Virus record (IMG/VR): IMGVR_UViG_3300049255_000147
Location: 1 to 37,851 of that record
Source of the DNA: a virus
Strand: one strand, 5' to 3'
Length of the DNA stretch: 37,851 nt
A program made the position numbers and the translations under genes. Positions 1,379 through 37,851 of the stretch are shown in pieces. The first letter of the stretch is position 1, and every line of letters begins with the position of its first letter. The notes beneath the pieces are model-generated. The model searched no databases. It had not been told where the DNA came from and saw only the letters and a program-made list of their open reading frames with translations.

Positions 1379-1656
1379 GCGACGTGCGCCCTGACTTCAC
1401 GCTGCCGGCGCTGACCCTGGAACAGATGGCCGATCTTGGCCGCTGCCTCGTCGGACTGGAGCGCGCCCGCGATCTGCTGGAGCAGCAGCTCGGGTGCGAC
1501 CCACAGCACGACCCGACGGTGCTGGCGCTGCGTTCGGCCCGCGCGGCGCTCGAACTGATCTATGTCGAGGAGGTATCTGCGCCGGACATGCGCCGTGTCG
1601 CCCAGACGCTGCACGCCGAGATCGTCATGCGCGGACCGGAGGCCGGCCATGGCTGA
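1375..1656 (+). CDS. Hypothetical protein, 93 aa, helical
   Basis: ATG at 1375 overlaps the stop of the GemA-like gene. The sequence is mostly amphipathic helix (LTLEQMADLGRCLVGLERAR; LRSARAALELIYVEE). It is acidic and has no signal peptide or membrane segment. The family is not recognised. The coupled start and stop and the codon bias support expression in the same transcript. Confidence 0.55.
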   Translation: MSDVRPDFTLPALTLEQMADLGRCLVGLERARDLLEQQLGCDPQHDPTVLALRSARAALELIYVEEVSAPDMRRVAQTLHAEIVMRGPEAGHG

Positions 1657-1882
1657 GATCAGCGTGGCCGACATCGAACTGCTGCGCCTGCTGCCGCACT
1701 CCGTGTGCGGGGTTTCGCAGAAGCAGTCGGACGTGCCCGCCGCGGTGCGGCGGATGCTCGATCGCATCGACAGACTGAAGCGGCTCGGCCTGCTGACCGC
1801 CACCATGTCGTCGTGTGGTCCGGGGCGGGTGAATGTCGCCTGCATGCTCACCGAGGCCGGCGCGGCGGTGGCGCGGCGATGA
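1649..1882 (+). CDS. Small winged-helix-like protein, 77 aa
   Basis: ATG at 1649 overlaps the end of the upstream gene by 8 bp. The pattern ISVADIELLRLLPHS, then VPAAVRRMLDRIDRLKRLGLL, then a short beta hairpin ending MLTEAGAAVARR looks like a minimal winged helix; the closing LTEAG is common in such domains. Likely a DNA-binding regulator of the phage, but this is inference from pattern only. It might act with the Mor-like activator two genes downstream. Confidence 0.55.
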   Translation: MAEISVADIELLRLLPHSVCGVSQKQSDVPAAVRRMLDRIDRLKRLGLLTATMSSCGPGRVNVACMLTEAGAAVARR

Positions 1883-2112
1883 GGCTGCTCCGCAACAAGC
1901 TCGCGCCCGCCGGGCGGTTCGCCGCCGCCGAATTCCTGGTGTTCGACGAGGCACTGACGATGCACGAGGCGATGCGGCGCGTCGGCTTCGCATTGAAGCC
2001 GATGGCGCGCGTGTATCGCGACGGCAACCACCTCACCGTGCGGCTGGTGTGGCGCCGCGCGTGCAGCGGCGAAAGTGCCTTGCTGGCGCTGCGCGTGCGG
2101 ATCGCGGGATGA
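1879..2112 (+). CDS. Hypothetical protein, 77 aa
   Basis: ATGA-coupled to the gene before and the gene after. Basic; begins MRLLRNKLAPAGRFAAAEF and ends in a short beta-rich part (NHLTVRLVWRR). No membrane segment and no motif recognised. Kept as a gene because of the coupling and the phage codon bias. Confidence 0.5.
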   Translation: MRLLRNKLAPAGRFAAAEFLVFDEALTMHEAMRRVGFALKPMARVYRDGNHLTVRLVWRRACSGESALLALRVRIAG

Positions 2113-2468
2113 CCGAGGCCGCCAGCCCCGAGGCCGCGCTGGTCGCGCTGATCGGCGAGACGGCGGCGCTCCTGCTGATCGAGCGGCACGGCGGCACGCG
2201 CATCACCGTGCCGGTCAGCGGCGGCGCGCTGGCGGCCGAGATCGGCGCCGAGGCGGCGGCGCGGCTGTTCGGCCATTTCGGCCATGACCGCGTTCATGTG
2301 CCACTGGCGAAGGCATGGCGGGCCGGCATTTATCGGCAGCGCGGCATGAGCTATTCCGCGATTGCCCGCAAACTCGGCTGCAACGAAGCGAGCGTGTGGA
2401 AACACCTGCATCCGCAGCCCGGCCGCGAACAATACAGCCTGTCGCTGTCCCTTCCGGAGAAGGGATGA
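2109..2468 (+). CDS. Mor/C-family-like late transcription activator
   Basis: 119 aa. The N-terminal half (LIGETAALLLIERHGGTRITV) and the middle (LFGHFGHDRVHVPLAKAWR) match the pattern of Mor-type proteins in Mu-like phages: an all-alpha dimerisation part, a short beta strand, then a helix-turn-helix. The HTH here is MSYSAIARKLGCNEASVWKHL (about residues 79-99). Mu Mor turns on the middle promoter and C the late promoters. Placement directly before the lysis and morphogenesis genes fits an activator of those genes. The last codons and the TGA lie inside a palindromic repeat (2449-2470). The HTH is clear; the Mor assignment is likely but not certain. Confidence 0.7.
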   Translation: MTEAASPEAALVALIGETAALLLIERHGGTRITVPVSGGALAAEIGAEAAARLFGHFGHDRVHVPLAKAWRAGIYRQRGMSYSAIARKLGCNEASVWKHLHPQPGREQYSLSLSLPEKG

Positions 2469-2489
2469 CGGGCATGTCGCGCGCGCGCG
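2449..2489 (+). repeat. Palindromic REP-like repeat, copy 1
   Basis: CCCTTCC-GGAGAAGGG forms a hairpin, followed directly by ATGACG and then an alternating CG run (2478-2489). The same unit occurs inverted at 13309-13350 and direct at 25242-25283. Here the palindrome supplies the last codons and the stop of the Mor-like gene. Confidence 0.7.
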
Positions 2490-2521
2490 TAGCGTCCACC
2501 GCGAACCCCGGAGACCGCAGC

Positions 2522-3079
2522 ATGAGTGGCAGCGCCAGCGACGATGTGTTTCCGCGCATCTGGGCCGTCACCGCCGGCTTCGAGGGCAGCACGCTCGACC
2601 TGACATACGGCGATCGCGGCAACTGGCGCACCGGCCGGGTCGGCATTGGCGTGCTGGCGGGCAGCAAGTTCGGCGTCTCAGCCGCCAGCTATCCCGACGT
2701 CGATATCGCTGCGCTGACCTATTCCGCCGCGATGGAGATCGCGCGCCGGGATTTCTGGACCGCCGTGCGCGGATCCGAGATGCATCCGGCGCTGGCGCTG
2801 CACGTGTTCGACAGCGCCTTCAACAATGGCGCGGGCAACGCCGCGAAACTGCTGCAGGCGGCGCTCGGCGTGACGATCGACGGCGTGATCGGGCCGCGCA
2901 CGCTGGCCGCCGCCGCCGCATGGAAAGACGTCGCATTGCTGTGCGCGGACTTCCTGGCGCAGCGCATCGCGTTCACGGCCGAGATGCCGGAATGGATCGA
3001 CGACGCGCATGGCTTCGCGGCGCGCCTCGCCCGCATCGCCTTCGCCAGCATTCCGTTCCTGACGGCCGCGACTCGGTAG
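2522..3079 (+). CDS. Endolysin, GH108-type N-acetylmuramidase
   Basis: 185 aa from the ATG at 2522, chosen because GGAG lies about 8 bases upstream; ATG at 2465 in the same frame is possible but would encode the repeat. The N-terminal part has the family pattern PRIWAVTAGFEGS with a likely catalytic Glu21, then VGIGVLAGSKFGVSAASYP, then a FDSAFNNGAGNAAKLLQ segment and a C-terminal peptidoglycan-binding domain (VTIDGVIGPRTLAAAA, residues ~117-132). GH108 enzymes cleave the glycan backbone of murein. No signal peptide or SAR segment is visible, so a holin is expected, but none is obvious nearby. First gene of the lysis block. Confidence 0.85.
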   Translation: MSGSASDDVFPRIWAVTAGFEGSTLDLTYGDRGNWRTGRVGIGVLAGSKFGVSAASYPDVDIAALTYSAAMEIARRDFWTAVRGSEMHPALALHVFDSAFNNGAGNAAKLLQAALGVTIDGVIGPRTLAAAAAWKDVALLCADFLAQRIAFTAEMPEWIDDAHGFAARLARIAFASIPFLTAATR

Positions 3080-3133
3080 CGCGGCCGGAGACCCATGCCG
3101 CGCGGGGTGCGCGGCGCAACGTTGAGGATGTTC

Positions 3134-3412
3134 ATGTTCGATCTTTCGCATATCGCGTCCGACTTCCGCGGCGCCGTCACCAACTTGGTGGCGCTGGCCG
3201 CCGGCGCGGAAAAATCTGTGCAGAAGCTGGAAGCCTCCGACCCGCTGGTCGCGTCGGCGATCAAGCTGGCCGAGGCGGAAGTGCCCGGCCTGTCGCAGGC
3301 GGTCGGCGCCGCCGAGATGGTGCTGGTCGGCGCGCAGTCCGTGGTGGCGGCGATGCAGGCCGCGACGCCCGCCCCGGCACCGGCACCCACCGTCGCCGGT
3401 ACAGCATCGTGA
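3134..3412 (+). CDS. Hypothetical protein next to the endolysin, 92 aa
   Basis: Two starts are possible: ATG 3134 with GAGG six bases before it (preferred), or ATG 3095 with GGAG four bases before it, adding 13 residues. The protein begins MFDLSHIASDFRGAVTNLV. It is mostly helical and Ala/Val rich, and ends in a Pro-Ala-rich tail (PAPAPAPTV). Not hydrophobic enough for a clear holin. It is coupled to the next gene by a GTGA overlap. Its place in the lysis cassette suggests a role in lysis, but nothing in the sequence shows it. Confidence 0.55.
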   Translation: MFDLSHIASDFRGAVTNLVALAAGAEKSVQKLEASDPLVASAIKLAEAEVPGLSQAVGAAEMVLVGAQSVVAAMQAATPAPAPAPTVAGTAS

Positions 3413-3822
3413 ACGGCTGGTCGAAGACGGCGCCGCGCTTCCGGCGGCCGTGGCCGCAGCGCAATCGCTGGATCGCGCTCGCCGGCGTCAGCATGATCGC
3501 GCTGCTGACGGCTGGGTGCGACGAAACGGCCACCGCGCCGGTGCCGGCTGCGACACAGGCGGCGATCACCGGCGACGCGGCGATCGCCACGGCCAGCGCG
3601 AAGATCGCGTCGTCGCTGGTCGCCGCCATCCCGAACGCGTCGCCCACGCTCCTGAAGAATTTGGCGTGCGGCGACGCCGCCATCGCCGATCTCGCGACCA
3701 CGGTGGCCAACGCCGTGACCGGGAGTTCGGCGGAGGCCGACGCCATCGCGGCCCTGGTGCAGGCGCTGGCGAGCTACAACAGCCTGACCGTCGCCGGCGG
3801 CGCCTGCGCGCCCGCGAAATAG
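3409..3822 (+). CDS. Phage lipoprotein, possible outer spanin component
   Basis: 137 aa from GTG at 3409 (GTGA overlap). A basic N-terminus (PRFRRPWPQRNR) leads into the hydrophobic segment WIALAGVSMIALLTAGC, a lipobox with Cys at about residue 38. The ~100-residue mature part is Ala-rich and helical (TAAITGDAAIATASAKIAS). Lipid attachment to the outer membrane and its place in a lysis cassette suggest an o-spanin-like role together with the membrane protein that follows; spanins evolve fast, so this is only inference. ATG 3493 is an alternative start that leaves a very short signal. Confidence 0.55.
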   Translation: MNGWSKTAPRFRRPWPQRNRWIALAGVSMIALLTAGCDETATAPVPAATQAAITGDAAIATASAKIASSLVAAIPNASPTLLKNLACGDAAIADLATTVANAVTGSSAEADAIAALVQALASYNSLTVAGGACAPAK

Positions 3823-3825
3823 CCG

Positions 3826-4173
3826 GTGACCGTGCCCACGCCCGCCGACTGGCAGACACTGGCCGCCATCGTCGCCGTGATCGGCGGCGTTGGCGGCATC
3901 GTGCTGTGGCTGACCCGCAACGCGCTGCACGGCAGCTTCGCGCCGCTGCGCAGCCACCAGGGTTTGGAGAAGCGCGTCGAGTCGCTGGAGCACCGCTCCA
4001 ACACGGTGCCCGGCCATGGCGAGTTCCTGGCTCTATCCCTGCGCGTCGGCGCCGTGGAAACCGGCGTCGCGGTGCTGCAACAGAGCATCAATGGCGTCGC
4101 GGAAGGCGTGAAGCGGATCGAGCACATCAACGATTTGCTGCTGAAACACCAGATCGGAGAGGGCGAGGTATGA
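3826..4173 (+). CDS. DUF2730-like membrane protein of Mu-like phages
   Basis: 115 aa, GTG start. An N-terminal transmembrane helix (LAAIVAVIGGVGGIVLWL, residues ~11-28) is followed by a coiled-coil type region (LEKRVESLEHR; LRVGAVETGVAVLQQSI; VKRIEHINDLLLKHQ). This layout and position, between the lysis genes and the gp26/gp27 genes, is that of DUF2730 proteins in Mu-like phages. The topology (one membrane span with a periplasmic or cytoplasmic coiled coil) would also suit an inner-membrane spanin partner of the lipoprotein upstream. ATGA-coupled to the next gene. Confidence 0.7.
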   Translation: MTVPTPADWQTLAAIVAVIGGVGGIVLWLTRNALHGSFAPLRSHQGLEKRVESLEHRSNTVPGHGEFLALSLRVGAVETGVAVLQQSINGVAEGVKRIEHINDLLLKHQIGEGEV

Positions 4174-4475
4174 GTTTCGCCGAGGAACTGGCGGCCGACC
4201 GCCGGCTGGTGGTGTTGCGCGCGCTGGCCGAAATGCCCGGCAATGCCGGCAACGAGAGCGTGGTGAAGCAGGCGCTGGACTATTTCGGCCACCGCGTCGG
4301 CAGCGACATCGTGCGCGCCGACCTGCAATTTCTGTCCGACCATGGGCTGCTGCGCATCGAGAAGATCGAGGCCGCGAAAGGCGATCTGTGGGTTGCCCGG
4401 CTGACGCAAGCCGGCGACGACGTGGCCGCCGGCCGCTCGGTGCATCCCGGGGTCAAGCGGCGCGGCGCGGAGTAG
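4170..4475 (+). CDS. Mu gp26-like winged-helix phage protein
   Basis: 101 aa. The pattern DRRLVVLRALAEMPGNAGNESVV, then GSDIVRADLQFLSDHGLLRI, then LWVARLTQAGDDVAAGRS and the closing PGVKRRG is that of a small conserved family that precedes the small terminase in Mu-like phages (annotated elsewhere as VpaChn25_0724-type). It reads as a winged helix. Role in packaging or regulation is not established. Start coupled to the upstream gene by ATGA. Confidence 0.75.
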   Translation: MSFAEELAADRRLVVLRALAEMPGNAGNESVVKQALDYFGHRVGSDIVRADLQFLSDHGLLRIEKIEAAKGDLWVARLTQAGDDVAAGRSVHPGVKRRGAE

Positions 4476-4480
4476 CGGCC

Positions 4481-5056
4481 GTGACGCGGCCCAGCAGCAT
4501 CGATCAGTTGCCCGAGGAAGTGCGCGCCGAGATCGGCCGCCTGCGCGGAATGGGCTGGACGATCGACCAGATCCTGGAGCACCTGCGCGCGCTGATCGAC
4601 CGTGCCCCCAGCCGCAGCGCGCTGGGCCGGCACATCCAGGGGCTGGACAAGCTGGGCGAGCGGATGCGCCGCAGCCGGCAGGTGGCCGAGGCGCTGGTGC
4701 GCGAGCTGGGCGACGCGCCGCAATCCCGCGCGGCCGCGCTGAACATCGAGTTGTTGCACAGCGCGGTGCTCGACCTGTTCATGAAGGCGGCCGACGGCGA
4801 GGCGGTGGACGGCGACGGCGCGGCGGCGCTGGCCGGCAACCCCGAGGGCACGATGATGCTGGCCAAGGCGCTGGATCATCTGTCGCGCGCCAGCAAGACC
4901 AACGTGGAATTCGTCGCCGCCGCCGAGAAGCGGGCGACCGAACGCGCCAAGCGCGAAGCCGCGACGGCGGCGGAGACGATCGCGCGCGAGCGCGGCATCA
5001 GCGGCGAAACGCTGGCCGCCATCAAGGCCGGCATTCTGGGGGTGAGGGCGGCATGA
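4481..5056 (+). CDS. Small terminase subunit, Mu gp27-like (DUF3486)
   Basis: 191 aa from GTG 4481, giving the usual N-terminus TRPSSIDQLPEEVRAEI, which is the DUF3486 signature. Further family features: WTIDQILEHLRAL, then SRSALGRHIQGLDKLGERMR, then a long helical region up to the C-terminus. Small terminases recognise the packaging site and regulate the large subunit; in Mu the pac site is near the left end. In Mu the gp28 large subunit follows directly, but here eight small genes intervene. Confidence 0.88.
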   Translation: MTRPSSIDQLPEEVRAEIGRLRGMGWTIDQILEHLRALIDRAPSRSALGRHIQGLDKLGERMRRSRQVAEALVRELGDAPQSRAAALNIELLHSAVLDLFMKAADGEAVDGDGAAALAGNPEGTMMLAKALDHLSRASKTNVEFVAAAEKRATERAKREAATAAETIARERGISGETLAAIKAGILGVRAA

Positions 5057-5220
5057 CCGAGCGGGACATCCAGGGCCACGTCACGGCCTTCATCGAAGCA
5101 ATGGACAAGGATGACGAACCGACCGCCAAGCGGGCGTTCGCCGTGCTGCTCAGCACCGCCCTTGTCGATCTGCACCGCATCGCCGACGCGCTGGAGGCAA
5201 TGGCGGCAAAACGCACATGA
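5053..5220 (+). CDS. Small hypothetical protein, 55 aa
   Basis: ATGA overlap with the small terminase gene. It begins MTERDIQGHVTAFIEAMDKD and is helical, with heptad-like spacing near the end (LVDLHRIADALEAMA). No membrane segment. Family not recognised. Codon bias agrees with neighbours, and its stop overlaps the next start. Confidence 0.55.
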   Translation: MTERDIQGHVTAFIEAMDKDDEPTAKRAFAVLLSTALVDLHRIADALEAMAAKRT

Positions 5221-5364
5221 CCATCGATCTGCTCGGCGACGGTGCTGGATGCCGTGTTGGCCGCCGTGCCGAAAGCGCCGCCCGGCGAGCCGCCGCACGT
5301 CATCGCGTCCTGGACGCATCCGCCGTGCAGCACCATCACTGTCGGCCACGCGCTCTGGAACTGA
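5217..5364 (+). pseudogene. Small gene with an apparent single-base frameshift
   Basis: ATG at 5217 (ATGA overlap) reads MTIDLL and then turns into a low-quality Arg/Ala-rich frame. One base after the sixth codon, the frame that starts at 5236 reads ATVLDAVLAAVPKAPPGEPP and on to HALWN with a stop at 5362-5364, which has good coding character. An extra G near 5235 would explain this: removing it gives a 48-residue protein. Alternatively the real gene starts at GTG 5242 with no good ribosome-binding site. Function unknown. Confidence 0.45.
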
Positions 5365-5462
5365 TGCAGCAAAAACGAGTGACGTTCAGCGGCGACGCGT
5401 TCGACCGCCGCTACTGGCGCGCCAGCCCGGCAGCCGCTGATAGCGTGGCGCAGGCGGCATGA
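5364..5462 (+). CDS. Very small hypothetical protein, 32 aa
   Basis: ATG at 5364 shares its A with the stop of the preceding frame (TGATG). Encodes MQQKRVTFSGDAFDRRYWRA followed by an Ala-rich tail; its TGA overlaps the next ATG. The translational coupling on both sides is the main support. No function visible. Confidence 0.4.
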   Translation: MQQKRVTFSGDAFDRRYWRASPAAADSVAQAA

Positions 5463-5929
5463 GCAACGCAGAGAGTCTCGCCTACGTCGTCGGAGTCTAC
5501 GAAGGCTCCAGCGGCGACGCGACCAAGGCGCTATATGAGCGGCTCGGTGGCTTGGGGCCAGCCGGCACGATCGCGCTCAACCTGTTCCGTGCCCAGAAGA
5601 ACTCAGCGCGGGCGAAGGTGTACCGGCGCCGCTACAAGCATGCGGCCTATGACCGCAAGCAGTGGGCAATGGGCAACCTCGCGCAGGCGCTATGCGACCA
5701 TGCCGATGCGCTGAACATTCGCTGGGGTTGGGGCGAGGACCCGGCGCAGGAGTATCACCGCGTCGTGCTGTATGTGGATTTGCCGACCGGGCAGGTCAGC
5801 TTCCACACGGACGTTCGCGGCGACGGTCCCGACTATCCGGGCGAATGGGACGGCGTTCGCGGGCAGTCGGCGGCGCGGATCTGCGCATGGACGGCGCGGG
5901 TCCTGGCGCATGAAAGCGCGCCCGCATGA
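5459..5929 (+). CDS. Conserved phage hypothetical protein, 156 aa
   Basis: Well-formed coding frame with ATGA-coupled start. Features: an N-terminal AESLAYVVGVYEG, a basic middle (RAKVYRRRYKHAAYDRKQW), then a beta-rich half with YHRVVLYVDLPTGQVSFH, GDGPDYPGEWDG and a closing SAARICAWTARVL. I recall the GPDYPGEWDG type motif from other phage proteins without assigned function. No catalytic motif or membrane segment. It ends 8 bases before the convergent stop of the PLD gene. Confidence 0.6.
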   Translation: MSNAESLAYVVGVYEGSSGDATKALYERLGGLGPAGTIALNLFRAQKNSARAKVYRRRYKHAAYDRKQWAMGNLAQALCDHADALNIRWGWGEDPAQEYHRVVLYVDLPTGQVSFHTDVRGDGPDYPGEWDGVRGQSAARICAWTARVLAHESAPA

Positions 5930-5937
5930 ACGCGCGC

Positions 5938-6456
5938 CTACTGGGTGGCGGCGCGGGCCTGGCGGGCTTGCCAATTTCGGGTGAACTCGGCCGCCACCTC
6001 GGGCGAGACGGTGACGGTCACGTCCTCGACGTTCCGACGCTCGGCGCTGGCGGTGTAATTGTAGCTGCCGCCGATCACCACGCGGCTGTCGATGATGATC
6101 GCCTTGACGTGCGCGATGCCCGGCACACGGTCAATCCACACCGGGATGCCGGCGCGCTGCATCGCCGCCAGCCCGCTGCCGTGCCCGTGCTCGTTGGAGC
6201 GATCGAGCAGCACCGCCACGTCCACGCCGCGATCCTTGGCGCGCAGCAGGGCTGCGATGATCGGGCGGGCGCTGAAGCCGTACGCCTCCACCCGGATGCT
6301 GGCGCGGGCGCTGTCGATCGCCGCCACGATGCGGCCGGCGCAGGGCTCGGCCGGGACGAAGCAGGTGTCCACCGTCGCCGGCGTCGGCTGCGCGGTGGCG
6401 AGGGCGGGCGCCAGGGCGGCCACCACCAGGGCGGCGAGAGCGGTGCGGATTTTCAT
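5938..6456 (-). CDS. Exported phospholipase D-family nuclease (single HKD motif)
   Basis: 172 aa from the ATG at 6456, chosen because a perfect GGAGGTGA lies 5 bases upstream. A signal peptide (MKIRTALAALVVAALAPALA, then TAQ) is followed by a PLD domain with the HKD motif HVKAIIIDSRVVIGGSYNYT: His116, Lys118, Asp123, with Gly129-Gly130 and Asn133. Length and the single motif match the Nuc-type periplasmic DNA nucleases that act as dimers. It is the only minus-strand gene inside the prophage, with its own strong ribosome-binding site, and so behaves like a cargo gene (moron) expressed in the lysogen. Periplasmic location would allow it to cut incoming DNA; that role is inference. Confidence 0.85.
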   Translation of the reverse strand: MKIRTALAALVVAALAPALATAQPTPATVDTCFVPAEPCAGRIVAAIDSARASIRVEAYGFSARPIIAALLRAKDRGVDVAVLLDRSNEHGHGSGLAAMQRAGIPVWIDRVPGIAHVKAIIIDSRVVIGGSYNYTASAERRNVEDVTVTVSPEVAAEFTRNWQARQARAATQ

Positions 6457-6511
6457 CGGATCACCTCCGTATCCGATCCTGCCCCCACGCTGCAACCGAT
6501 GCATTAACGCC

Positions 6512-6685
6512 ATGATAACGGGCTGGCACGTCGCAATTTATCGGTCGCGCATCTGCTGGATCGCGCTGGCCCGCCGCACGCCGTTCCCGCGCGGCGAGCT
6601 GATGCCCGGCCCCGGCGGCCGCTTCGCCTTCGGCCAGTCGCGCGACGAGGCGCTGGCGAACCTGCGCGATGAGGTGGCGCGGTGA
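6512..6685 (+). CDS. Small hypothetical protein, 57 aa
   Basis: ATG at 6512, divergent from the PLD gene with 55 bp between the two starts. Begins MITGWHVAIYRSRICWIALA. The C-terminal FAFGQSRDEALANLRDEVAR resembles the end of HicB-type antitoxin domains, but the fold is too short to be sure and no HicA-like partner is adjacent. GTGA overlap with the next gene. Confidence 0.45.
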   Translation: MITGWHVAIYRSRICWIALARRTPFPRGELMPGPGGRFAFGQSRDEALANLRDEVAR

Positions 6686-6840
6686 GCGGCGATGTCGGCC
6701 TGGAGATCGCGATGCTGGTGGAGGAGCTGTTCCACCAGAGCGTGCCGCGCGACCGGGCCGCCCGGCATCTGCTGCGGCTCGATCTGCAGGAGCTTTACCA
6801 CCACGCCGCCCGCAATCCGGAAAAGGTGAAGGCCGAATGA
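6682..6840 (+). CDS. Small hypothetical protein, 52 aa
   Basis: GTG at 6682 overlaps the previous stop (GTGA). Helical and acidic at the start (GDVGLEIAMLVEELFHQSVP), with a short basic stretch RDRAARHLLRLDL. ATGA-coupled to the next gene. No family recognised. Confidence 0.45.
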   Translation: MSGDVGLEIAMLVEELFHQSVPRDRAARHLLRLDLQELYHHAARNPEKVKAE

Positions 6841-7040
6841 TCGAGGGCGGACTCTGGCGCCACTACAAGGGCGGCCTGTACCGCGTCATCTGCCGCGCGC
6901 GCGACGCGAACGATGGCGTGCCGCTGGTGATCTACGAGGACATCGGCACCGGCCGCATCTACGCGCGCCCGGAATGCGAGTGGGAGCAGCCGATCCTGGA
7001 GCGCGGCCCTGGCGTGCTGCGCTTTGTGCGGGTGCCATGA
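6837..7040 (+). CDS. DUF1653-like small protein, 67 aa
   Basis: Contains LWRHYKGGLYRVICRA, then PLVIYEDIGTGRIYARP and a WEQPI segment, the pattern of the short DUF1653 fold ('HYKG..Y.V......PLV.Y......W.RP...F'). These are small beta-barrel-like proteins of unknown role, sometimes carried by phages. ATGA overlaps on both sides. Confidence 0.6.
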   Translation: MIEGGLWRHYKGGLYRVICRARDANDGVPLVIYEDIGTGRIYARPECEWEQPILERGPGVLRFVRVP

Positions 7041-7237
7041 GCGACGTAATCCGCATCGAAGTCAGCCTTTGGGACAGCGGCTGCCTGCCAGAGTTGCTGC
7101 GCAAGGAGATCGCGGCGGTTGAGCGGTATTTGCGCGCCATCGGCGATCAGTTGTCGGCAAGCGATCTCGCCGGCAAGAGCGCTTATCGCGACCAACTTGT
7201 GAATTGCGCCAGGGCTGTCGCAAAGGCACGCGCATGA
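7037..7237 (+). CDS. Small hypothetical protein, 66 aa
   Basis: ATG at 7037 coupled to the stop of the DUF1653-like gene. Starts MSDVIRIEVSLWDSGCLPEL and ends in a helical region with several Ala/Lys. No family recognised. Its stop overlaps the start of the large terminase (ATGA at 7234-7237). Confidence 0.5.
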   Translation: MSDVIRIEVSLWDSGCLPELLRKEIAAVERYLRAIGDQLSASDLAGKSAYRDQLVNCARAVAKARA

Positions 7238-8802
7238 CCGCCCTTCCCGATGTCCTGCTGCCCTATCAGCAGCGCCTGTGGCAGGCGATCGATGCGAGTG
7301 CGCTCAGCGTGCACGAGAAGTCGCGGCGCACCGGCTTTTCCTGGGCGCTCGGCGCGGTCGCAGCTGCGACGGCTGGCGCGGCCCGCTCGGCCGGCGGCCA
7401 GGACGTGCTATATATGGGCTACGAAAAGGACATGACGCGCGAGTTCATCGGCTACGTGGCCGAATGGGCGAAGGCGTTCCAGGTCGCCGCCGGCGAGGTG
7501 CAGGAGTTCCTGTTCACCGACCCCGAGAATCCCGACAAGTCCGTCGGCGCGTTCCGCATCCGCTTCGCCAGCGGCTTCGAGGTGATCGCGCTGCCCAGCG
7601 TGGCGCGCGCGCTGCGCGGCAAGCAGGGGCTGGTGATCCTGGACGAGGCCGCGTTCATGGATGACCTGGAGGCGGTGCTGAAGGCGGCACTCGCGCTGCT
7701 GATCTGGGGCGGCAAGGTGGTCGTCGTCTCCACCCATTTCGGCGAGGAAAACCCGTTCAACGGCCTGATCAACGACATCCGCGCCGGCCGCACGCGCGGC
7801 GCGGTCACCCGCACCACGTTCGACGAGGCGCTGGCGGAAGGGCTGTATCGCCGCATCTGCCTGCGCCTCGGCCGCGCATGGTCGGCCGAGGCCGAAGCAA
7901 AATGGCGTCAGGAGATCCTCGACACCTATCGCGACAACGCCGACGAGGAACTGAACGTCATCCCGAACCCCACCAGCGGGGTATATCTGCCGCGCGTGCT
8001 GGTCGAGGCACGGTGCGTTCCCGATGTCCCGGTGGTGCGCTGGACCGCGCCCAAGGGCTTCACCCTGTGGGCGGAGCATATCCGGGTCGCCGAGGCACTG
8101 GCGTTCTGCGAGCGCGAGCTGCTGCCGGTGCTGTCGGCGCTGCACAAGGACGAGGCGCACGCACTGGGCAGCGACTTCGGCCGCGTGCGCGACCTGACGG
8201 TGGACTGGCTGCTGGCGATCGGCCGCGACCTGGTGCGCCGCCCGCGGCTGGTGCTTGAGCTGCGCGAGGTGCCGCACGAGCAGCAGCGGCAGATCCTGTT
8301 CTACATCCTGGACCGCGCGCCCAAGCTGCGCGCCGTAAAACTCGACGCCGGCGGCAACGGCAGCTACATCGCCGAGGCCACGCTGCAACGCTACGGCGAG
8401 TGCGTCGAGCCGGTGCAGTTGTCCGAGCTTTGGTATCGCGAGCACATGCCGCGCTGGAAGGCGGCGATCGAGGACGCGGCGATGCTGCTGCCGCGCGACC
8501 GCGAGATCGTCGATGACCACTGCATGGTCAAGCTGGTGCGGGGCATCGCCAAGATCCCGGACCGCCGCCGCACCGCCGCCGGCGAGCAGCGCCACGGCGA
8601 CGCCGCGATCGCCAGCGCCCTCGCCTACGCCGCCAGCGAGGCCGAGGTGATGGAGTACGGCTACGAGGGCGCCATGCCGTCGGCGCTGAAGCCGCCGGCG
8701 AGCAACCGCTGGCGCGACCGCCCGAACCATGACGACGACGTGGACGCGCAGCCGAGCGGCCGAGGCTGGATGCCCGAAATGAGGGGAGGATTGATGCTGT
8801 GA
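7234..8802 (+). CDS. Large terminase subunit, Mu gp28-like
   Basis: 522 aa; start chosen at the ATGA overlap. The ATPase part has a Walker-A-like EKSRRTGFSWALG (residues 28-40), Walker B GLVILDEAAF (132-141, with the catalytic Glu) and a coupling motif VVVVSTHFGE (162-171). The C-terminal nuclease domain begins near ALGSDFGRVRDLTVDW with its first metal-binding Asp. A likely later acidic residue is in the HGDAAIA segment near the end. It cuts the concatemeric or inserted phage DNA and drives it into the prohead through the portal. The last ~50 residues are a low-complexity Asp/Pro tail. Confidence 0.93.
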   Translation: MTALPDVLLPYQQRLWQAIDASALSVHEKSRRTGFSWALGAVAAATAGAARSAGGQDVLYMGYEKDMTREFIGYVAEWAKAFQVAAGEVQEFLFTDPENPDKSVGAFRIRFASGFEVIALPSVARALRGKQGLVILDEAAFMDDLEAVLKAALALLIWGGKVVVVSTHFGEENPFNGLINDIRAGRTRGAVTRTTFDEALAEGLYRRICLRLGRAWSAEAEAKWRQEILDTYRDNADEELNVIPNPTSGVYLPRVLVEARCVPDVPVVRWTAPKGFTLWAEHIRVAEALAFCERELLPVLSALHKDEAHALGSDFGRVRDLTVDWLLAIGRDLVRRPRLVLELREVPHEQQRQILFYILDRAPKLRAVKLDAGGNGSYIAEATLQRYGECVEPVQLSELWYREHMPRWKAAIEDAAMLLPRDREIVDDHCMVKLVRGIAKIPDRRRTAAGEQRHGDAAIASALAYAASEAEVMEYGYEGAMPSALKPPASNRWRDRPNHDDDVDAQPSGRGWMPEMRGGLML

Positions 8803-9185
8803 TGCGGTATCTCGGGCTGTGCCTTGTCGTGTCCGCCGCACCGACCCTTGCCGCGCCGCCGCCGGAAGGTCCGCTGCTGGATCGGCTGAAGCCACACAAG
8901 GACTGGATCGAGGGGCAATGGCGGCACTGCCACAACCCGCCCAGCGATCTGTGCTACTGCTGCAACGTCGCCGATGGCCGGCCGGTCGAAGCCGAGCAGC
9001 AGCGCGACGGCCACTGGCGAGCGCATGTCACGCCGGAGATGTGGCCGGGCGCGCCGGACAAGTGGGAAGACATGCCGCGCGAGATCGAAGTGCCGGACAG
9101 CCCGTTCATGTTCGAAGGCTTCCTATGGCGCAGCCCGAAGACCGGCCAGAATTACTGCTTCGCGCCGCCGGCCGGTGGCGTGTAG
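8799..9185 (+). CDS. Exported Cys-rich hypothetical protein, 128 aa
   Basis: Starts GTG 8799 or ATG 8802, both overlapping the terminase stop. The N-terminus YLGLCLVVSAAPTLAAPPP looks like a Sec signal peptide with cleavage near residue 20. The mature part has an unusual Cys cluster, HCHNPPSDLCYCCNVADGRP, and a later YCFAPP. Such clusters suggest disulphides in the periplasm. Function unknown. It lies with two more small genes between the large terminase and the portal, an interval normally empty in Mu. Confidence 0.6.
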   Translation: MMRYLGLCLVVSAAPTLAAPPPEGPLLDRLKPHKDWIEGQWRHCHNPPSDLCYCCNVADGRPVEAEQQRDGHWRAHVTPEMWPGAPDKWEDMPREIEVPDSPFMFEGFLWRSPKTGQNYCFAPPAGGV

Positions 9186-9493
9186 TGAGCGCGCACATCG
9201 CCGCACCGCTTGACGAAGAGGATGCGTGGCGCGTCGCGCATGCCCGCACCGTGGCGCTCGGCCTGGTGATGAACGCGCTGCACCTTATCGACCGGCGCAA
9301 GCTGCTGCCGCGCCATTGGGAGTTCGTTCGCTACGTCTGCTGCAAGCCGGTGGAACACCTTTCGATCGCGCAGCGCGACCATGTGCTGCGGCTCGGCTGG
9401 CGCTACCGCGAGCATCTGCCGGCGCACCTGGCGCCGAAGGTGAACCCCGCCGACCCGATCGTGCGCGAAATGGAGGCGCAGCATGCCGGATGA
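9185..9493 (+). CDS. Hypothetical protein, 102 aa
   Basis: GTG at 9185 overlaps the previous stop by one base. Contains a helical region (EEDAWRVAHARTVALGLVM; LIDRRKLLPRHWEFVRYVC) and a basic segment IAQRDHVLRLGWRYREHLP. No known motif. Its end overlaps the next start by 11 bases. Confidence 0.5.
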   Translation: MSAHIAAPLDEEDAWRVAHARTVALGLVMNALHLIDRRKLLPRHWEFVRYVCCKPVEHLSIAQRDHVLRLGWRYREHLPAHLAPKVNPADPIVREMEAQHAG

Positions 9494-13386: not shown

Positions 13387-14320
13387 GTGACCGCCACCAT
13401 CACCCTTCATACCGCGCTCGATGCCGGCGTGCCCGAGTGGGTGCAGCTTGTGCCGGCCGGCACGTTCAAGGGCGCTGATGGGCGCGGTCCCTACACGCTG
13501 ACGAACGCCGCCGCCGTGATCGCCGCCAGCATGGCGGGACCGAACGCGCGCCTGCCGGTCGATGAGAACCACAGCACCGACATCGCGGCGCCGAAGGGCG
13601 AGCCGTCGCCGGCGCGCGGCTGGATCGTCGAACGGCATCTGGGGCCGCGTGGAATGGACCGACACCGGACGCGCGCTGCTGGCCGATAAGTCCTATCGCG
13701 GCATCAGCCCGGTGATGGACGTCGAGAAAAACACCGGCCGCGTGCTGCTGCTGCGCCGCGCGGCCCTGACCAACACCCCGAACCTGACCCAGCTCGCCAC
13801 CCTCAACCACCAGGAGTCACAGATGGACGTAGTCCGGATGCGGACGCTGCTCGGCCTGGCCGCCGACGCGGATGAGGCGGCGATCCTCGCCGCGATCGAG
13901 CGCCAGGCCGCCGAGCGCACGGCGCACGCCGCGCGCGTCACCGAGTTGCAGGCGCAGGTCGCCGCGGCCGTGAAGCCCGAGCTGGTGACGCAACTGCAAA
14001 CGCAGATCGCGCAGTTGCAGGCCGACGGCGCCCGCACCCGCGCCACCGCGTTCATCGACAAGGCGATCGCCGACGGCAAGCCGATCGCGCCGCTGCGCGA
14101 CCACTACGTGACGCGCCACATGGCCAACGCGGCGGATGTGGAAACCGAGATCGGCAAGCTGCCGTCGATCCACACCGGCGGCGCGGGCCAGCACACCGTG
14201 CGCCACGACGCGGCGGACGGCGACGGCGACGGGCTGACCGAGACCGAGTCCAAGGTCTGCCAGACCATGGGCATCGACCCGAAGAAGTTCGCGGCGGCGA
14301 AGAAGAAGAAGGCGGCCTGA
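13387..14320 (+). pseudogene. Head maturation protease, Mu I (gp32)-like, frameshifted
   Basis: The frame from GTG 13387 has the N-terminal protease part: PEWVQLVPAGTFKGADGRGP, ARLPVDENHSTDIAAPKG with the likely catalytic His of DENH, then PARGWIVE. After about 13626 the family sequence continues one frame over: NGIWGRVEWTDTGRALLADK, YRGISPVMDVEKNTGRVLLL, and the scaffold region. In intact relatives about five residues lie between GWIVE and the G-W-G-R-V-E-W-T strand; here they are missing, so a small deletion of 3n+2 bases is likely. The protease cannot be made full length from this sequence unless ribosomes shift +1, and no clear slip site is seen. Confidence 0.8.
13823..14320 (+). CDS. Head scaffold protein, Mu Z (gp33)-like, from internal start
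   Basis: 165 aa from ATG 13823, preceded by AGGAG with a 6-base spacer (13812-13816). It is in the same frame as the C-terminal half of gene I, as in Mu, where Z is the C-terminal part of I translated separately. Features: MDVVRMRTLLGLAADADEAA, then long helical stretches (AIERQAAERTAHAARVTELQ; LVTQLQTQIAQLQAD), then a compact C-terminal HALF (VCQTMGIDPKKFAAAKKKK), the usual capsid-binding end. Scaffold directs prohead assembly and is removed by the protease. This start lies after the frameshift, so Z should still be made. Confidence 0.8.
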   Translation: MDVVRMRTLLGLAADADEAAILAAIERQAAERTAHAARVTELQAQVAAAVKPELVTQLQTQIAQLQADGARTRATAFIDKAIADGKPIAPLRDHYVTRHMANAADVETEIGKLPSIHTGGAGQHTVRHDAADGDGDGLTETESKVCQTMGIDPKKFAAAKKKKAA

Positions 14321-23480: not shown

Positions 23481-24661
23481 GCTGGAGCAGTGGCGGCGGC
23501 CGGGTCGCACTGACCATCAACGGCGTCGCCTACACCAAATGGCTGTCGATGACCCTGACGCGCGACCTGCGCAACATCACCGGCACGTTCAGCCTGTCGA
23601 TGCGCGACGCCGGCCGTGCCGACGCGGCGATGCCGGGCAGCACGTTCGCGCCGGTGCCGTCGCCGATCCTGCGCCGGCAAAGCTGCACGCTGGCGCTCGA
23701 CGGCGAGCTGGTGCTGGACGGCTGGATCGACAAGATGGAGGGCAAATGGACCGATGGATCGCTTTCTTTAAGCATTTCCGGCCGCGACAAGACTGGCGAT
23801 CTCGCCGACTGCTCCGCCGCCCCGACCGGCCCCGCCGAATGGCGCAACGCCACATTGCTGCAAGTCGCGCGGCAGGTTTGCGCCCCGTTCGGGATATCCG
23901 TGGCGGCGCAGACCGATGTCGGCGCGCCGTTCGTTCGCCTCGCGATCAACCCGCACGAGAGCGCGTTGAGCCTGCTGGAGAAGGCGGCGCGCCAGCGCGG
24001 CGTTCTGGTGGTGAGCGACGGCGTCGGCGGCCTGCTGCTGACCAGCGGCGGCCGCGCGGCGGCGCCCGGCGACCTGATCGTGGGCGGCGGGGGCCTCGTC
24101 CAGTCCGCCGCCTTCACCTTCGACGACACGCACCGCTTCAGCGACATCTACGTGAAGGGCCAGTCGGAAAAATGCGCCGGGCATCGGCCGTCCGGCGCAC
24201 CGCCGATGGGGCACGACTATGTGCCCGGCACCCAGCCGAACATGGCGGGCGCGCAGGCGATCGAGGCCGCCGGCATCCTGATGACCGGCCACGCCACCGA
24301 CCCCGAGGTGACGCGCTTCCGGCCGAGTGTGCGGATGACGCGCACCCAAAGCGGCAGCGCGACACAGCAGCAACAGGCGGAATGGGCGGTGCGGGTGGCG
24401 CGCGGCGAAAGCACCGGCCTGACCTACACCGTGCTCGACTGGCGCGCGAACGGCGAGCTGTGGCGGCCGAACACCACCGTGCGGGTCTACGACCGCTACG
24501 CCGGCATCGACGACGTGATGCTGATCCGCAGCGTCGGCTTTCGGCTGGGGCCGGACGGCGCGAAGCCGGCGACGCCGACCACCGACATCGGCGTGGTCGG
24601 GCTGACCGCGTTCGACCGCATCGACGAGCCGCAGCCTAAGCGCCCGCTAAAGGCGCCCTGA
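23477..24661 (+). CDS. Baseplate hub protein, Mu P (gp44)-like
   Basis: 394 aa from ATG 23477 (ATGA overlap). Contains RVALTINGVAYTKWLSMTLT, FSLSMRDAGRA, ELVLDGWIDKMEGKWTDGSL, SISGRDKTGDLADCSA and WRNATLLQVARQVCAPFGIS, followed by the hub core HESALSLLEKAARQRGVLVV. This is the gpD/gp27-like hub at the tail tip, as in Mu gp44. The C-terminal part (YTVLDWRANGELWRPNTTV) also fits the family. Confidence 0.9.
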   Translation: MSWSSGGGRVALTINGVAYTKWLSMTLTRDLRNITGTFSLSMRDAGRADAAMPGSTFAPVPSPILRRQSCTLALDGELVLDGWIDKMEGKWTDGSLSLSISGRDKTGDLADCSAAPTGPAEWRNATLLQVARQVCAPFGISVAAQTDVGAPFVRLAINPHESALSLLEKAARQRGVLVVSDGVGGLLLTSGGRAAAPGDLIVGGGGLVQSAAFTFDDTHRFSDIYVKGQSEKCAGHRPSGAPPMGHDYVPGTQPNMAGAQAIEAAGILMTGHATDPEVTRFRPSVRMTRTQSGSATQQQQAEWAVRVARGESTGLTYTVLDWRANGELWRPNTTVRVYDRYAGIDDVMLIRSVGFRLGPDGAKPATPTTDIGVVGLTAFDRIDEPQPKRPLKAP

Positions 24662-35183: not shown

Positions 35184-36002
35184 ATGGAGTCGAGTCTCGA
35201 AACGACGCCTATTCGCCCTGCCGCGCCGGTCGCCGCGTATCTCGGCGGCAAGCGCAACCTTGCCAAGCGGATCATCGCCCGCATCGGCGCCGTGCCGCAC
35301 GCGACCTATGTCGAGCCGTTCGTCGGCATGGGCGGCGTATTCCTGCGCCGGCCGTGGCGCGCCCGGTCGGAGGTGATCAACGATCTCAGCCAGGATGTGA
35401 CCACGCTGTTCCGTGTGTTGCAGCGGCACTATGAGGCGCTGATGGACATGCTGCGCTGGCAACTCACCAGCCGGGCCGAGTTTGACCGGCTGCTGGCCGC
35501 CAACGCCGATACCCTCACCGACCTGGAGCGGGCGGCCCGCTTCCTCTACCTCCAGCGCACCGCGTTCGGCGGCAAGGTTGTGGGGCAGCATTTCGGCGTC
35601 TCGCCGGGGTTGCCGGGCCGATTTGATGTGACAAAGTTGGCATCGGTGCTGGAGGGGGCGCATGAACGCCTTGCTGGCGTCGTCATCGAGCGGCTGCACT
35701 GGCATGAGCTGCTGCGCCGCTACGACCGGCCTGAGACGTTGTTCTACCTGGACCCGCCATACTGGGGCAGCGAGACGGACTATGGCGCCGGCCTATTCGC
35801 CCGCGACGACTTCGCCCGGCTGGCTGAGGCGCTGTCTGGGCTGAAGGGTAAGTTTCTGCTGTCGCTCAACGACCGGCCGGAGGTGCGTGAGGTATTCGCC
35901 GCCTTCGCCCAGGAGCGATTGGAGACCACTTACATGGTCGCCGGCGGCGGCCGAAGCCAGCGCGTCGCCGAGTTGCTGATCTCTCGCCGCCCGCCCCTCT
36001 AG
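35184..36002 (+). CDS. DNA adenine-N6 methylase, Dam type (D12 class)
   Basis: 272 aa. Motif I AAYLGGKRNLAKRIIARIG (the FxGGK class), then a catalytic DPPY at YLDPPYWGSE, and the D12 marks YVEPFVGMGGVFLRRP and RTAFGGKVVGQHFGV. It transfers a methyl group from SAM to N6 of adenine. It stands alone at the right end of the prophage in the place of mom in Mu, which also modifies adenines. Protection of virion DNA against host restriction is a likely role. No restriction enzyme is next to it, so an orphan methylase. Confidence 0.93.
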   Translation: MESSLETTPIRPAAPVAAYLGGKRNLAKRIIARIGAVPHATYVEPFVGMGGVFLRRPWRARSEVINDLSQDVTTLFRVLQRHYEALMDMLRWQLTSRAEFDRLLAANADTLTDLERAARFLYLQRTAFGGKVVGQHFGVSPGLPGRFDVTKLASVLEGAHERLAGVVIERLHWHELLRRYDRPETLFYLDPPYWGSETDYGAGLFARDDFARLAEALSGLKGKFLLSLNDRPEVREVFAAFAQERLETTYMVAGGGRSQRVAELLISRRPPL

Positions 36003-36357
36003 AGCCCCCATAACAGGCCGATTAGCGTGCTCTCAGAGGGCTGAGGATGATCCCGCGTGGTTCCGGAATCGGGTGGCAAATTGTCCGGAATCGGATGGCG
36101 CGCTACAACCACCAGCGGCCCGGGGAGCCGCCGCAGATGCCCATGCCGCGCGATCAACTGGCACAGCAGGTCGGCGATGGCGGTGAGGCGGGTGAGCGGC
36201 ATGGTTAGAGATACTAACGCAAAGTGGGTGGGCGGGGCAAGGGGGGATGGTTTGTGGACCACGGGAAGGCGGGTGAAACCGCCGCCGCAACGCGCCGGCG
36301 CCTCCGTCGGCGGACCTGTGACTTGCGCCACGCGGCCAGACGCGCCAACAGATTGCC
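36003..36357. other. Non-coding region at the prophage/host junction
   Basis: No convincing gene. It holds the direct repeats at 36061-36099, a possible prophage end near 36107 and a short minus-strand frame that begins at 36202 (MPLTRLTAIADLLCQLIARH) and runs up to the putative end, where it could be a host gene cut by insertion. Composition changes from phage-like GC to mixed. The part from about 36215 resembles sequence that often lies around RAYT genes, but this is recall only. Confidence 0.4.
36061..36099 (+). repeat. Two 17-bp direct repeats with 22-bp period, candidate transposase sites at the right end
   Basis: TTCCGGAATCGGGTGGC (36061-36077) and GTCCGGAATCGGATGGC (36083-36099) differ at two positions and are spaced by exactly 22 bp. 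In Mu, R1 and R2 are 22-bp MuA sites that abut. A CA dinucleotide follows 7 bp after the second copy (36106-36107), as would be needed at a Mu-type end. IS ends are an alternative. Confidence 0.4.
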
Positions 36358-36493
36358 GTTACGGACTGCCTCCGCAAGCGCGTGCCAAGCGGCATGTACT
36401 GCTTCACGGTCAACCTGCTCGACCGTAACAGCGATTTGCTGACCGACAACATCAACGCGCTTCGCAAATCGGTCCGCGACGCCCGCGCCCACG
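36358..36493 (+). pseudogene. RAYT (REP-associated tyrosine transposase) N-terminal remnant
   Basis: The frame reads TDCLRKRVPSGMYCFTVNLL, then DRNSDLLTDNINALRKSVRD and ARAH. This matches the RAYT start ('TDYRRNRVPGGTYFFTVNLLDR.SDLL...I..LR..V...RA..PF'). The ATG expected before TDC is GTT. After ARAHG (about 36493) the similarity ends and the His-x-His catalytic centre 'LPDHMH' is absent, so it is a dead fragment. RAYTs move or maintain REP palindromes. Confidence 0.72.
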
Positions 36494-36552: not shown

Positions 36553-37851
36553 TCAGCCAGGGTCGCGGAGTACTGCGAGCAGACTGACGCATGGACTTCC
36601 AATGTTGAGTTGTTCACTTGCCGGTCGAAGGCCAGCCTCTCCGGCGAGTTCAACCAATTCCTCGCGGATCAAACCATGCTGAAACATCCCCCGCCGAGCA
36701 TCACTGAGGTAGCCGTCGCCTTCAGGCGGCCAGAGCTTTCGCGCGGCTTCACCGTCGATCTCGGCCCGCGATCGGGCAACCATCAACAAGCGTCCCTTTG
36801 GTAATAGACAACGGGCAGCACCGCGGATCGATTGCAGCCTTTGTGATTCTGTAGGTAACACGTTTAGAACATATAAAAGGAGGACAAGGTCAAATCGGTC
36901 GGATGGTAGAAAGGCGCGACCAAAATCCGGGTGCGGATCGTATCCGGCTACTGCGTAACCAAGGTTGGTGAGGTGCTGCACGTCGGCGCCGTGCCCGCAT
37001 CCGTAATCAAGGATAGAACGTACCCCCCATCGCCCGAGTGCGCCTGATGCGACGAGTTTTCGGACCGGCTTCGATGCGATGGAACGATGAATTGCAGTGT
37101 TGTGCGGGCGGACATTAATTGACGTCGTGACGGTAGCCGACTGAGGCTCGCTATGGGGCGGTGAAAAGGTGGGCGCTCCTTCAATTGCCATTCCTGGCCG
37201 TAGGTCAACGATACAGGCTGAGTGGTCGGTAAACGCGTTCGATCCGCTTCGCACCTCATGGTCGTAGCGGGCAACAAAAGCATTGCCTTCGGTAGCGAAG
37301 GCCAGATCACAGCGAAATCGCGTCCACTTACCCTTGTTGATCCGCTCAAACGTATATTGCTGCCCTCCTAGCCGAACGCACGTTGTGAGATCAACCAGCC
37401 CGATTTCGGCAAGCAATCTTGTGAGTGCGGCGCGTTCACCTGCGCTCGTCCATTTGCTCTCGTCGTCACCGTAGCGGCCGTCCATCGGCATGGGCGCCAA
37501 ATTGAAATCGCCAACCAATACAAGCGGCTTGGCATTGTCCATAAGCGAACAGCGAAGGGCGTCGAGTTGCCGAACCCGAACCCTGCTCGAGTAGGCCGAT
37601 AGATATATGCAGCAAATCAGGGTAGAATCTGATTCCACGAACACGGCTGGAATGTCGCTGTATCTAATTAGACGAACAACTTTTTGCTTAGCCCAACACG
37701 CAACGTGCCCGTCACCTGCGACTAGATCCATATCCACGATCTTCGGCGGCAAGCCTGCGCCTGGGCCAACAGCCTCCTGCAGCAGAAGAACTTCGGGATC
37801 GACGCGAACCAGCCATCGCTGCATTGCTCCCAGAGTCTTCGGATCATTCAA
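36553..37851 (-). CDS. EEP-family nuclease fused to SAM methyltransferase (5' end outside window)
   Basis: 432 residues visible; the frame is open at the window edge, and a few N-terminal residues including the first EEP strand are missing. Residues 1-220: endonuclease/exonuclease/phosphatase domain with catalytic Glu in VLLLQEAVG (Glu26), VLVGDFNLAP (114-117), RCDLAF and the DH pair in NAFTDHSACIVDL (209-210). Residues ~245-432: class I methyltransferase with NTAIHRSIASKPVRKLV, SILDYGCGHGADV (282-288), AGYDP and a YVLNVLP strand, resembling DNA phosphorothioation-associated methyltransferases. Clearly lower GC and different codon use than the prophage. Confidence 0.8.
   Translation of the reverse strand: MNDPKTLGAMQRWLVRVDPEVLLLQEAVGPGAGLPPKIVDMDLVAGDGHVACWAKQKVVRLIRYSDIPAVFVESDSTLICCIYLSAYSSRVRVRQLDALRCSLMDNAKPLVLVGDFNLAPMPMDGRYGDDESKWTSAGERAALTRLLAEIGLVDLTTCVRLGGQQYTFERINKGKWTRFRCDLAFATEGNAFVARYDHEVRSGSNAFTDHSACIVDLRPGMAIEGAPTFSPPHSEPQSATVTTSINVRPHNTAIHRSIASKPVRKLVASGALGRWGVRSILDYGCGHGADVQHLTNLGYAVAGYDPHPDFGRAFLPSDRFDLVLLLYVLNVLPTESQRLQSIRGAARCLLPKGRLLMVARSRAEIDGEAARKLWPPEGDGYLSDARRGMFQHGLIREELVELAGEAGLRPASEQLNIGSPCVSLLAVLRDPG

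Follow-up and report, generated by a model that had tools for sequence, protein, structure and literature searches.

A predicted exported nuclease of the Nuc type encoded antisense between the terminase genes of a Mu-like phage

Nuc of pKM101 is an exported, plasmid-borne nuclease. The DNases of the Campylobacter jejuni prophages CJIE1 (which is Mu-like), CJIE2 and CJIE4, and IdeA of a Vibrio ICE, are not known to be of the PLD type and belong to another nuclease family. They are exported DNases of integrated elements for which a drop in transformation has been measured. According to the accessible part of PMC4774983, transformation is lowered by CJIE1 Dns by three orders of magnitude, by the CJIE2 and CJIE4 enzymes by two, by IdeA by two to three and by YokF by one. 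All three isolates that carry CJIE1 gave a positive result for its DNase, which was not detected in the single isolate lacking the prophage (PMC4004267, in the section accessible). Exported DNases carried by prophages are thus already known; the predicted one described here is of the Nuc type. The titles and abstract openings listed in searches of open-licence literature, with most subscription journals outside its scope, showed no prophage-encoded PLD nuclease that is exported and has been tested.

The nuclease subfamily of the PLD superfamily has a basic groove and includes dimeric members, and the groove of Nuc accepts double-stranded DNA (PMC5714352). NucT of Helicobacter pylori (6ehi) is a periplasmic PLD-type endonuclease; its inactivation has a modest effect on competence, and the accessible part of the paper describes no block (PMC5714352). 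A role of Nuc in the partitioning of pCTX-M3 is cited in PMC12365149, where deletion of nuc was without effect on the stability of pOXA-48. A different envelope-associated nuclease that acts on DNA at entry is SNIPE, a GIY-YIG protein with DUF4041, an inner-membrane anchor and its nuclease on the cytoplasmic side (PMC13190303, as far as its accessible text goes).

The gene described here is phage-borne and antisense in the terminase region, unlike that of Nuc. Its product shares with Nuc a single HKD motif and the fold, and Nuc is its best relative in both sequence and structure; Nuc is, however, without the CF-x-P...C cysteine pair in the aligned stretch. NucT has the same fold at a lower similarity (E-value = 2.3e-7). 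In contrast to the Campylobacter and Vibrio enzymes, the protein is known from its sequence and a model. The SNIPE-type domains GIY-YIG and DUF4041 are absent: a Pfam search at E-values up to 0.001 gives only PLDc_2 and a SACK1 match below its cut-off. DrmC of DISARM also has a PLD domain and is the top NCBIfam match, and DrmC models come first in PADLOC; however, the score of 47 bits falls short of the NF038319 cut-off of 133, so that membership in DrmC is rejected. Unlike DrmC, the protein has a predicted signal peptide, and no DISARM genes were found among the neighbors scanned. The phospholipase D gene of Wolbachia phage WO is Nuc-like (41% identical over 80%), but is located beside a patatin gene near tail genes and elsewhere in the tree.

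The gene and its predicted product

The window (the whole stretch of DNA that was analysed) corresponds to one IMG/VR record, linear and 37,851 bases long, with a G+C content of 0.687. Its first bases are already within a Mu Gam-like gene, so that it lacks the early region. A late activator, an endolysin, a Gp27-like small terminase subunit, a large terminase subunit and a Mu-like portal follow, and further genes encode an F protein, a virion morphogenesis protein, a protease, a sheath and a baseplate-hub protein. By its gene content the record is thus a fragment of a Mu-like phage without the early region. Related large terminases are present in 96 phage records, 51 of which are named after Pseudomonas. 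The best match is in Chromohalobacter phage YPCBV-1 (51.6% over 87%); next come Rhodobacter phage RC1 and Rhodovulum phage RS1 (45.5% over 98%). Features of the locus are listed in Table 1.

Table 1. Coordinates of the features at the nuclease locus, in positions of the window.
Feature	Position	Strand	Basis
Small terminase subunit (Mu Gp27-like), bounding the slot on the left	4388..5056	+	family match
gpx, conserved 156-aa protein; left insertion edge, convergent with the PLD gene	5459..5929	+	homologues
Exported single-HKD PLD-superfamily nuclease (Nuc type), predicted	5938..6456	-	open reading frame, family, structure, selection
HxKx4Dx6GSxN catalytic signature, residues 116-133	6058..6111	-	signature definition in PMC5714352
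Cys32...Cys39 pair (CF-x-P motif), possible disulfide	6340..6363	-	alignment of 40 viral-contig homologues
Putative signal peptide spanning residues 1-22, expected to be cleaved behind A20-T21-A22	6391..6456	-	read from sequence
Interval of 55 bp from the PLD start codon to the divergent small plus-strand ORF, well conserved	6457..6511		comparison
Shine-Dalgarno sequence GGAGGTGA	6461..6468	-	4 bases ahead of ATG; identical in homologue L003
Divergent small ORF, 57 aa, in conserved block	6512..6685	+	codon-position substitutions
Large terminase subunit (TerL), right border of the slot	7234..8802	+	family match

The minus-strand open reading frame at 5938–6456 encodes 172 amino acids and is a real gene. 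A comparison with homologue L003 (90% aa identity) gives a dN of 0.060 and a dS of 0.240, and the nucleotide differences at codon positions 1, 2 and 3 number 15, 6 and 29. There are 17 amino acid changes in the PLD frame; there would be 33 if the overlapping open plus-strand frame were coding. The codon-position differences, together with the family matches, rule out a chance open reading frame or a plus-strand gene at this position, and judged by these rates the protein is under purifying selection. The G+C content is 0.723 in the gene vs. 0.692 in positions 1–36000, and sliding windows display no step. An exchange of the PLD cassette later than its flanks was considered and is not clear from the dS values of 0.24 for PLD, 0.48 for gpx and 0.30 for TerL.

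The protein displays the residues H116-x-K118-x4-D123-x6-G130-S131-x-N133, i.e. the complete signature. These are invariant in alignments of 15 and of 40 chosen sequences, which are hand-picked loci, so that invariant columns lean to intact members. The full signature is found in 76 of 80 viral loci (it is absent in L168, L177, L180 and L181) and the HxKx4D part in 79. The Pfam family PLDc_2 is matched with an E-value of 2.7e-23 (82.7 bits vs. a cut-off of 27), and in PHROGs the match is to an unnamed phage family, phrog_12711 (4e-34). A phmmer search of the PDB places Nuc of pKM101 (1byr) first (E-value = 6.5e-23), followed by Zucchini/MitoPLD and NucT. An AlphaFold2 monomer model, built from the alignment of 40, has a pLDDT of 91.2; with this model Foldseek also places 1byr first (TM 0.78/0.88, 1.8 Å), then NucT and Zucchini, with lipid PLDs lower. 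By signature and by its proximity to the nuclease rather than the lipase members, the protein classifies with the Nuc subfamily, and it is very probably a nuclease.

The N-terminal region reads as a hydrophobic, Sec-type sequence that ends in A20-T21-A22. The viral loci encode 75 distinct homologues, 64 of which have a hydrophobic N-terminal stretch by a crude hydrophobicity rule. Ten of these 64 show lipobox matches, two of which (L105 and L107) are the cysteine of the CF-x-P motif and no lipobox. Thus export seems to be a property common to the family of PLD homologues, and there is good reason to predict that the protein sits in the cell envelope. Among the 40 aligned viral-contig homologues, 25 have both cysteines of the CF-x-P...C pair, six have one and nine have neither.

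The first-pass annotation had proposed that the gene has a perfect Shine-Dalgarno sequence, a complete HKD motif and a signal peptide, and that its product is a periplasmic nuclease. The first three are borne out by the features described above and in Table 1, and for the fourth an envelope-directed nuclease is supported over a phospholipase, with Nuc at the top of both the sequence and the fold searches.

A search of positions 5400–7300 for sigma-70-type promoters and for terminators yielded none of either, with a consensus that may not fit this host. A 7-bp inverted repeat, ATCGGAT/ATCCGAT, is found at positions 6455–6477; it flanks the Shine-Dalgarno sequence, is conserved in homologue L103 and could be an operator. 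An RNA hairpin that would control the Shine-Dalgarno sequence was rejected, the fold being no better than that of shuffled sequences (z = -0.5). Seven of 12 substitutions at positions 6457–6690 fall in third codon positions of the divergent 57-aa open reading frame, which has no PHROG match.

The interval between the terminase genes and the relatives of PLD

Loci were collected by the large terminase (48) and by the small terminase (10), which after removal of three duplicates gives 55 contigs, several of them near-copies. Both terminase genes are present on 52 of these. The gap between Gp27 and TerL, measured from one matched stretch to the other, is 120 bp or less in 30 of the 52, 121–320 bp in two and larger than 320 bp in 20. 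Both PLD contigs belong to this last group. Among the retrieved stretches of the 55 contigs, PLD is found only in L041 and L049. Over 11,928 bases L049 shares 99.97% identity with the window; L041 is 80%–89% identical in pieces. The open reading frames in 15 gaps were inspected by eye: rightward genes of lipase-like (L047, L056), MT-A70-like (L086, L093) and GcrA-like (L059, L062) type are found there, together with others to which no name could be assigned by eye.

The gpx gene, which has neither a Pfam nor a PHROG family match, is found in 18 viral loci and lies between the terminase genes in eight of them, L041 and L049 included; the genome loci L004–L040 gave no match to it. Where PLD is missing, the spacing between gpx and TerL is about 28 bp in L184, L190 and L191, 79 bp in L186 and 1,044 bp in L187 and L188; in L187 the space holds a lipase-like gene and another open reading frame. 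PLD and the small open reading frames that follow it therefore resemble an insertion at a site also used by other cargo. A fixed two-gene cassette of gpx and PLD was rejected, since in L184, L186–L188, L190 and L191 the terminase genes enclose gpx but not PLD.

The first-pass annotation had regarded the gene as a candidate moron. Its placement agrees with this: PLD is inserted between genes that adjoin in related phages (L184, L190, L191, and the 30 short gaps of 52). The definition of morons, as well as Mu-like phages with variable accessory regions, is given in PMC4378225 (accessible in part). By its position, PLD fits a moron of a temperate Mu-like phage. The terminase cargo slot of Mu-like phages is a place to look for more accessory genes.

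A separate observation concerns an open reading frame at positions 8799–9185 (plus strand), between TerL and the portal gene. It has a signal-like N-terminus, several cysteines and no PHROG match, and its product evolves much faster than TerL (38% vs. 90% identity to L041).

PLD relatives are frequent on viral contigs: an alignment search found 86, of which 80 were kept. These IMG/VR contigs are viral by prediction, and plasmids or host DNA may be among them. The scan of genome contigs used patterns from one sequence, and near homologues in genomes may therefore be missed. A tree of 109 rows, with a midpoint root and a bootstrap that is not fully settled, was built after six sequences were dropped as too long or identical and one locus had no match. 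In this tree the window is in a starred set of seven rows, all of which are viral contigs (98/89).

Gene contexts in the set of the window are as follows. L104 has a portal of phrog_21, and its PLD adjoins an integrase and is antisense to the portal and endolysin genes. L105 and L106 have a portal of phrog_156 and integrases, and PLD has the same direction as the portal. In all three, PLD is downstream of the identified structural genes. Thus three of the closest homologues of the window sit in two other phage types; set members L107 and L126 count as viral by the IMG/VR prediction. The Mu-like contigs L122, L130 and L174 also have a Nuc-like gene, co-directional with the terminase genes, and in L122 and L130 this gene is among lysis-type genes (names assigned by eye). 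L122 and L130 fall into other starred groups of the tree, which suggests that Mu-like phages acquired a PLD-type gene on more than one occasion; the branch of L174 is long and its placement unsure. Because gene calling put some genes of the window on the wrong strand, orientation is given here for individual loci and not as a count over the 80 viral homologues.

At least 5,000 plasmid records match PLD. In both of the plasmid relatives inspected the gene is in a transfer region, which means that this family of enzymes is not bound to DNA exclusion. Relatives are also carried by Candidatus Megaera plasmids and by phage WO.

A search for the lysogen host in 385 genomes, from the class of the Kordiimonas locus L023, yielded no host. 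PLD is matched at 1e-25 in 14 of these genomes, with a best identity of 45%. Genomes of 2.6 Mb or less make up 13 of the 14 with a PLD relative (E-values up to 1e-25; L200–L214).

Possible roles of the enzyme

PLD is proposed to be an accessory cargo gene for an envelope DNase that is made in the lysogen and degrades incoming or free DNA, with a probability of roughly 0.45. The enzyme, a single-HKD nuclease of the Nuc type by sequence and fold, would have to pair to form one active site. Its signal peptide would direct it through Sec to the periplasm, where Cys32 and Cys39 may form a disulfide. Transcription would start at a promoter of its own and take place mainly in the lysogen, because late transcription would run antisense through PLD; expression in the lysogen is, on balance, the prediction slightly favored. 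In the envelope, cutting of DNA without sequence specificity would then degrade foreign DNA that crosses the periplasm.

The benefit with the best precedent would be a block of natural transformation, a process through which recombination can remove a prophage. Deletion of prophages through transformation is described in the accessible part of PMC12637031, and this gives a prophage a reason to block transformation. The closest experimental precedent found also concerns natural transformation, by the DNases of Campylobacter prophages, rather than superinfection (PMC4774983 and PMC4004267, both accessible in part). The same activity could also exclude other phages or plasmids, or make use of DNA as food. 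By analogy with these systems, a benefit through the blocking of DNA entry is plausible, at somewhat less than even odds. If this is true, another nuclease family is used by prophages to control DNA entry into the host, which bears on mobile-element conflicts and on why prophages reduce transformation. The failure to find a promoter or terminator at positions 5400–7300 and the only slightly raised G+C content of the gene count against the proposal, and so does gene orientation in some relatives: PLD faces the same way as the portal in L105 and L106, and the co-directional arrangement with the terminase genes in L122, L130 and L174, in the first two among lysis-type genes by eye, speaks for a lytic role there.

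A broader form of the proposal appears doubtful. It would make exported Nuc-type nucleases widespread prophage genes, acquired on several occasions by temperate phages of unrelated kinds as well as by conjugative plasmids, which act as a general periplasmic barrier to DNA in transformation and to plasmids and phages, the copy in the window being one instance.

Superinfection exclusion, in which the periplasmic nuclease would cut the DNA of other phages during injection, had been suggested in the first-pass annotation and is unlikely. The signal peptide and the nuclease fold are in accordance with it, and so is the homologue in L105, which is near an anti-phage gene. However, in the periplasm the DNA that a phage injects is for the most part shielded, a chain of 172 amino acids would leave no room for a targeting domain, and the low DrmC score given above also argues against this role. 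SNIPE shows that nuclease cleavage of phage DNA at injection exists, but it does so with a cytoplasmic nuclease domain of another family that associates with entry proteins (PMC13190303, accessible part). The anti-phage gene in L105 (positions 3981–5516) encodes a dCTP deaminase (PADLOC, 3.6e-157).

A lytic-phase enzyme is a slightly weaker candidate. Made around lysis, it would degrade released host DNA in the envelope or the medium, or aid lysis. The homologues in L122 and L130, with their direction and their lysis-type neighbors, point to such a role, as do the direct placement of the L130 gene behind a Mor-like gene (by eye) and the co-directional gene in L174. Against this, the gene in the window faces against the late operon, and the L104 gene against portal and endolysin. 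In the L130 segment at positions 1473–3564, PLD directly follows the Mor-like gene, and lysis-type and lipase-like genes come a short distance after it, again with names assigned by eye.

The envelope DNase might, with still lower probability, serve as a scavenging enzyme that feeds nucleotides and phosphate to the host. NucT of H. pylori has been linked to purine salvage (PMC5714352), and extracellular nucleases are said to serve nutrient acquisition (PMC6085458, accessible in part). However, no transport or nucleotidase gene was found among the few neighbors scanned, and one further nuclease would add little in a host that usually possesses nucleases already. A phospholipase acting on membrane lipids is the most improbable, since Nuc is first by fold and by sequence with lipid PLDs well below, although the superfamily is shared, phage WO and plasmid relatives are annotated "phospholipase D" (names only), and the WO gene adjoins a patatin-like gene.

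Other leftward genes of the record

According to the first-pass annotation, no gene of the prophage other than PLD faces left. This is only partly true: as far as about position 36,000, PLD alone among leftward genes has homology or selection behind it, but a second leftward gene is present at positions 36553–37824. Simple gene calling gives seven more minus-strand open reading frames to the left of this second gene. Four of them (2–247, 959–1378, 1833–2468 and 13562–14320) overlap plus-strand genes supported by homology, and for the other three (9152–9484, 23768–24184 and 36214–36492) there is no PHROG match on either strand, which leaves these as candidates.

The second leftward gene has methyltransferase and endonuclease/exonuclease/phosphatase domains and a G+C content of 0.565, compared with 0.692 in positions 1–36000. 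Its product has no match among 50,697 phage records. It matches seven plasmid records, four of which are annotated as DNA phosphorothioation-associated putative methyltransferase, and it may be host DNA, or a phage or defence-like cargo gene.
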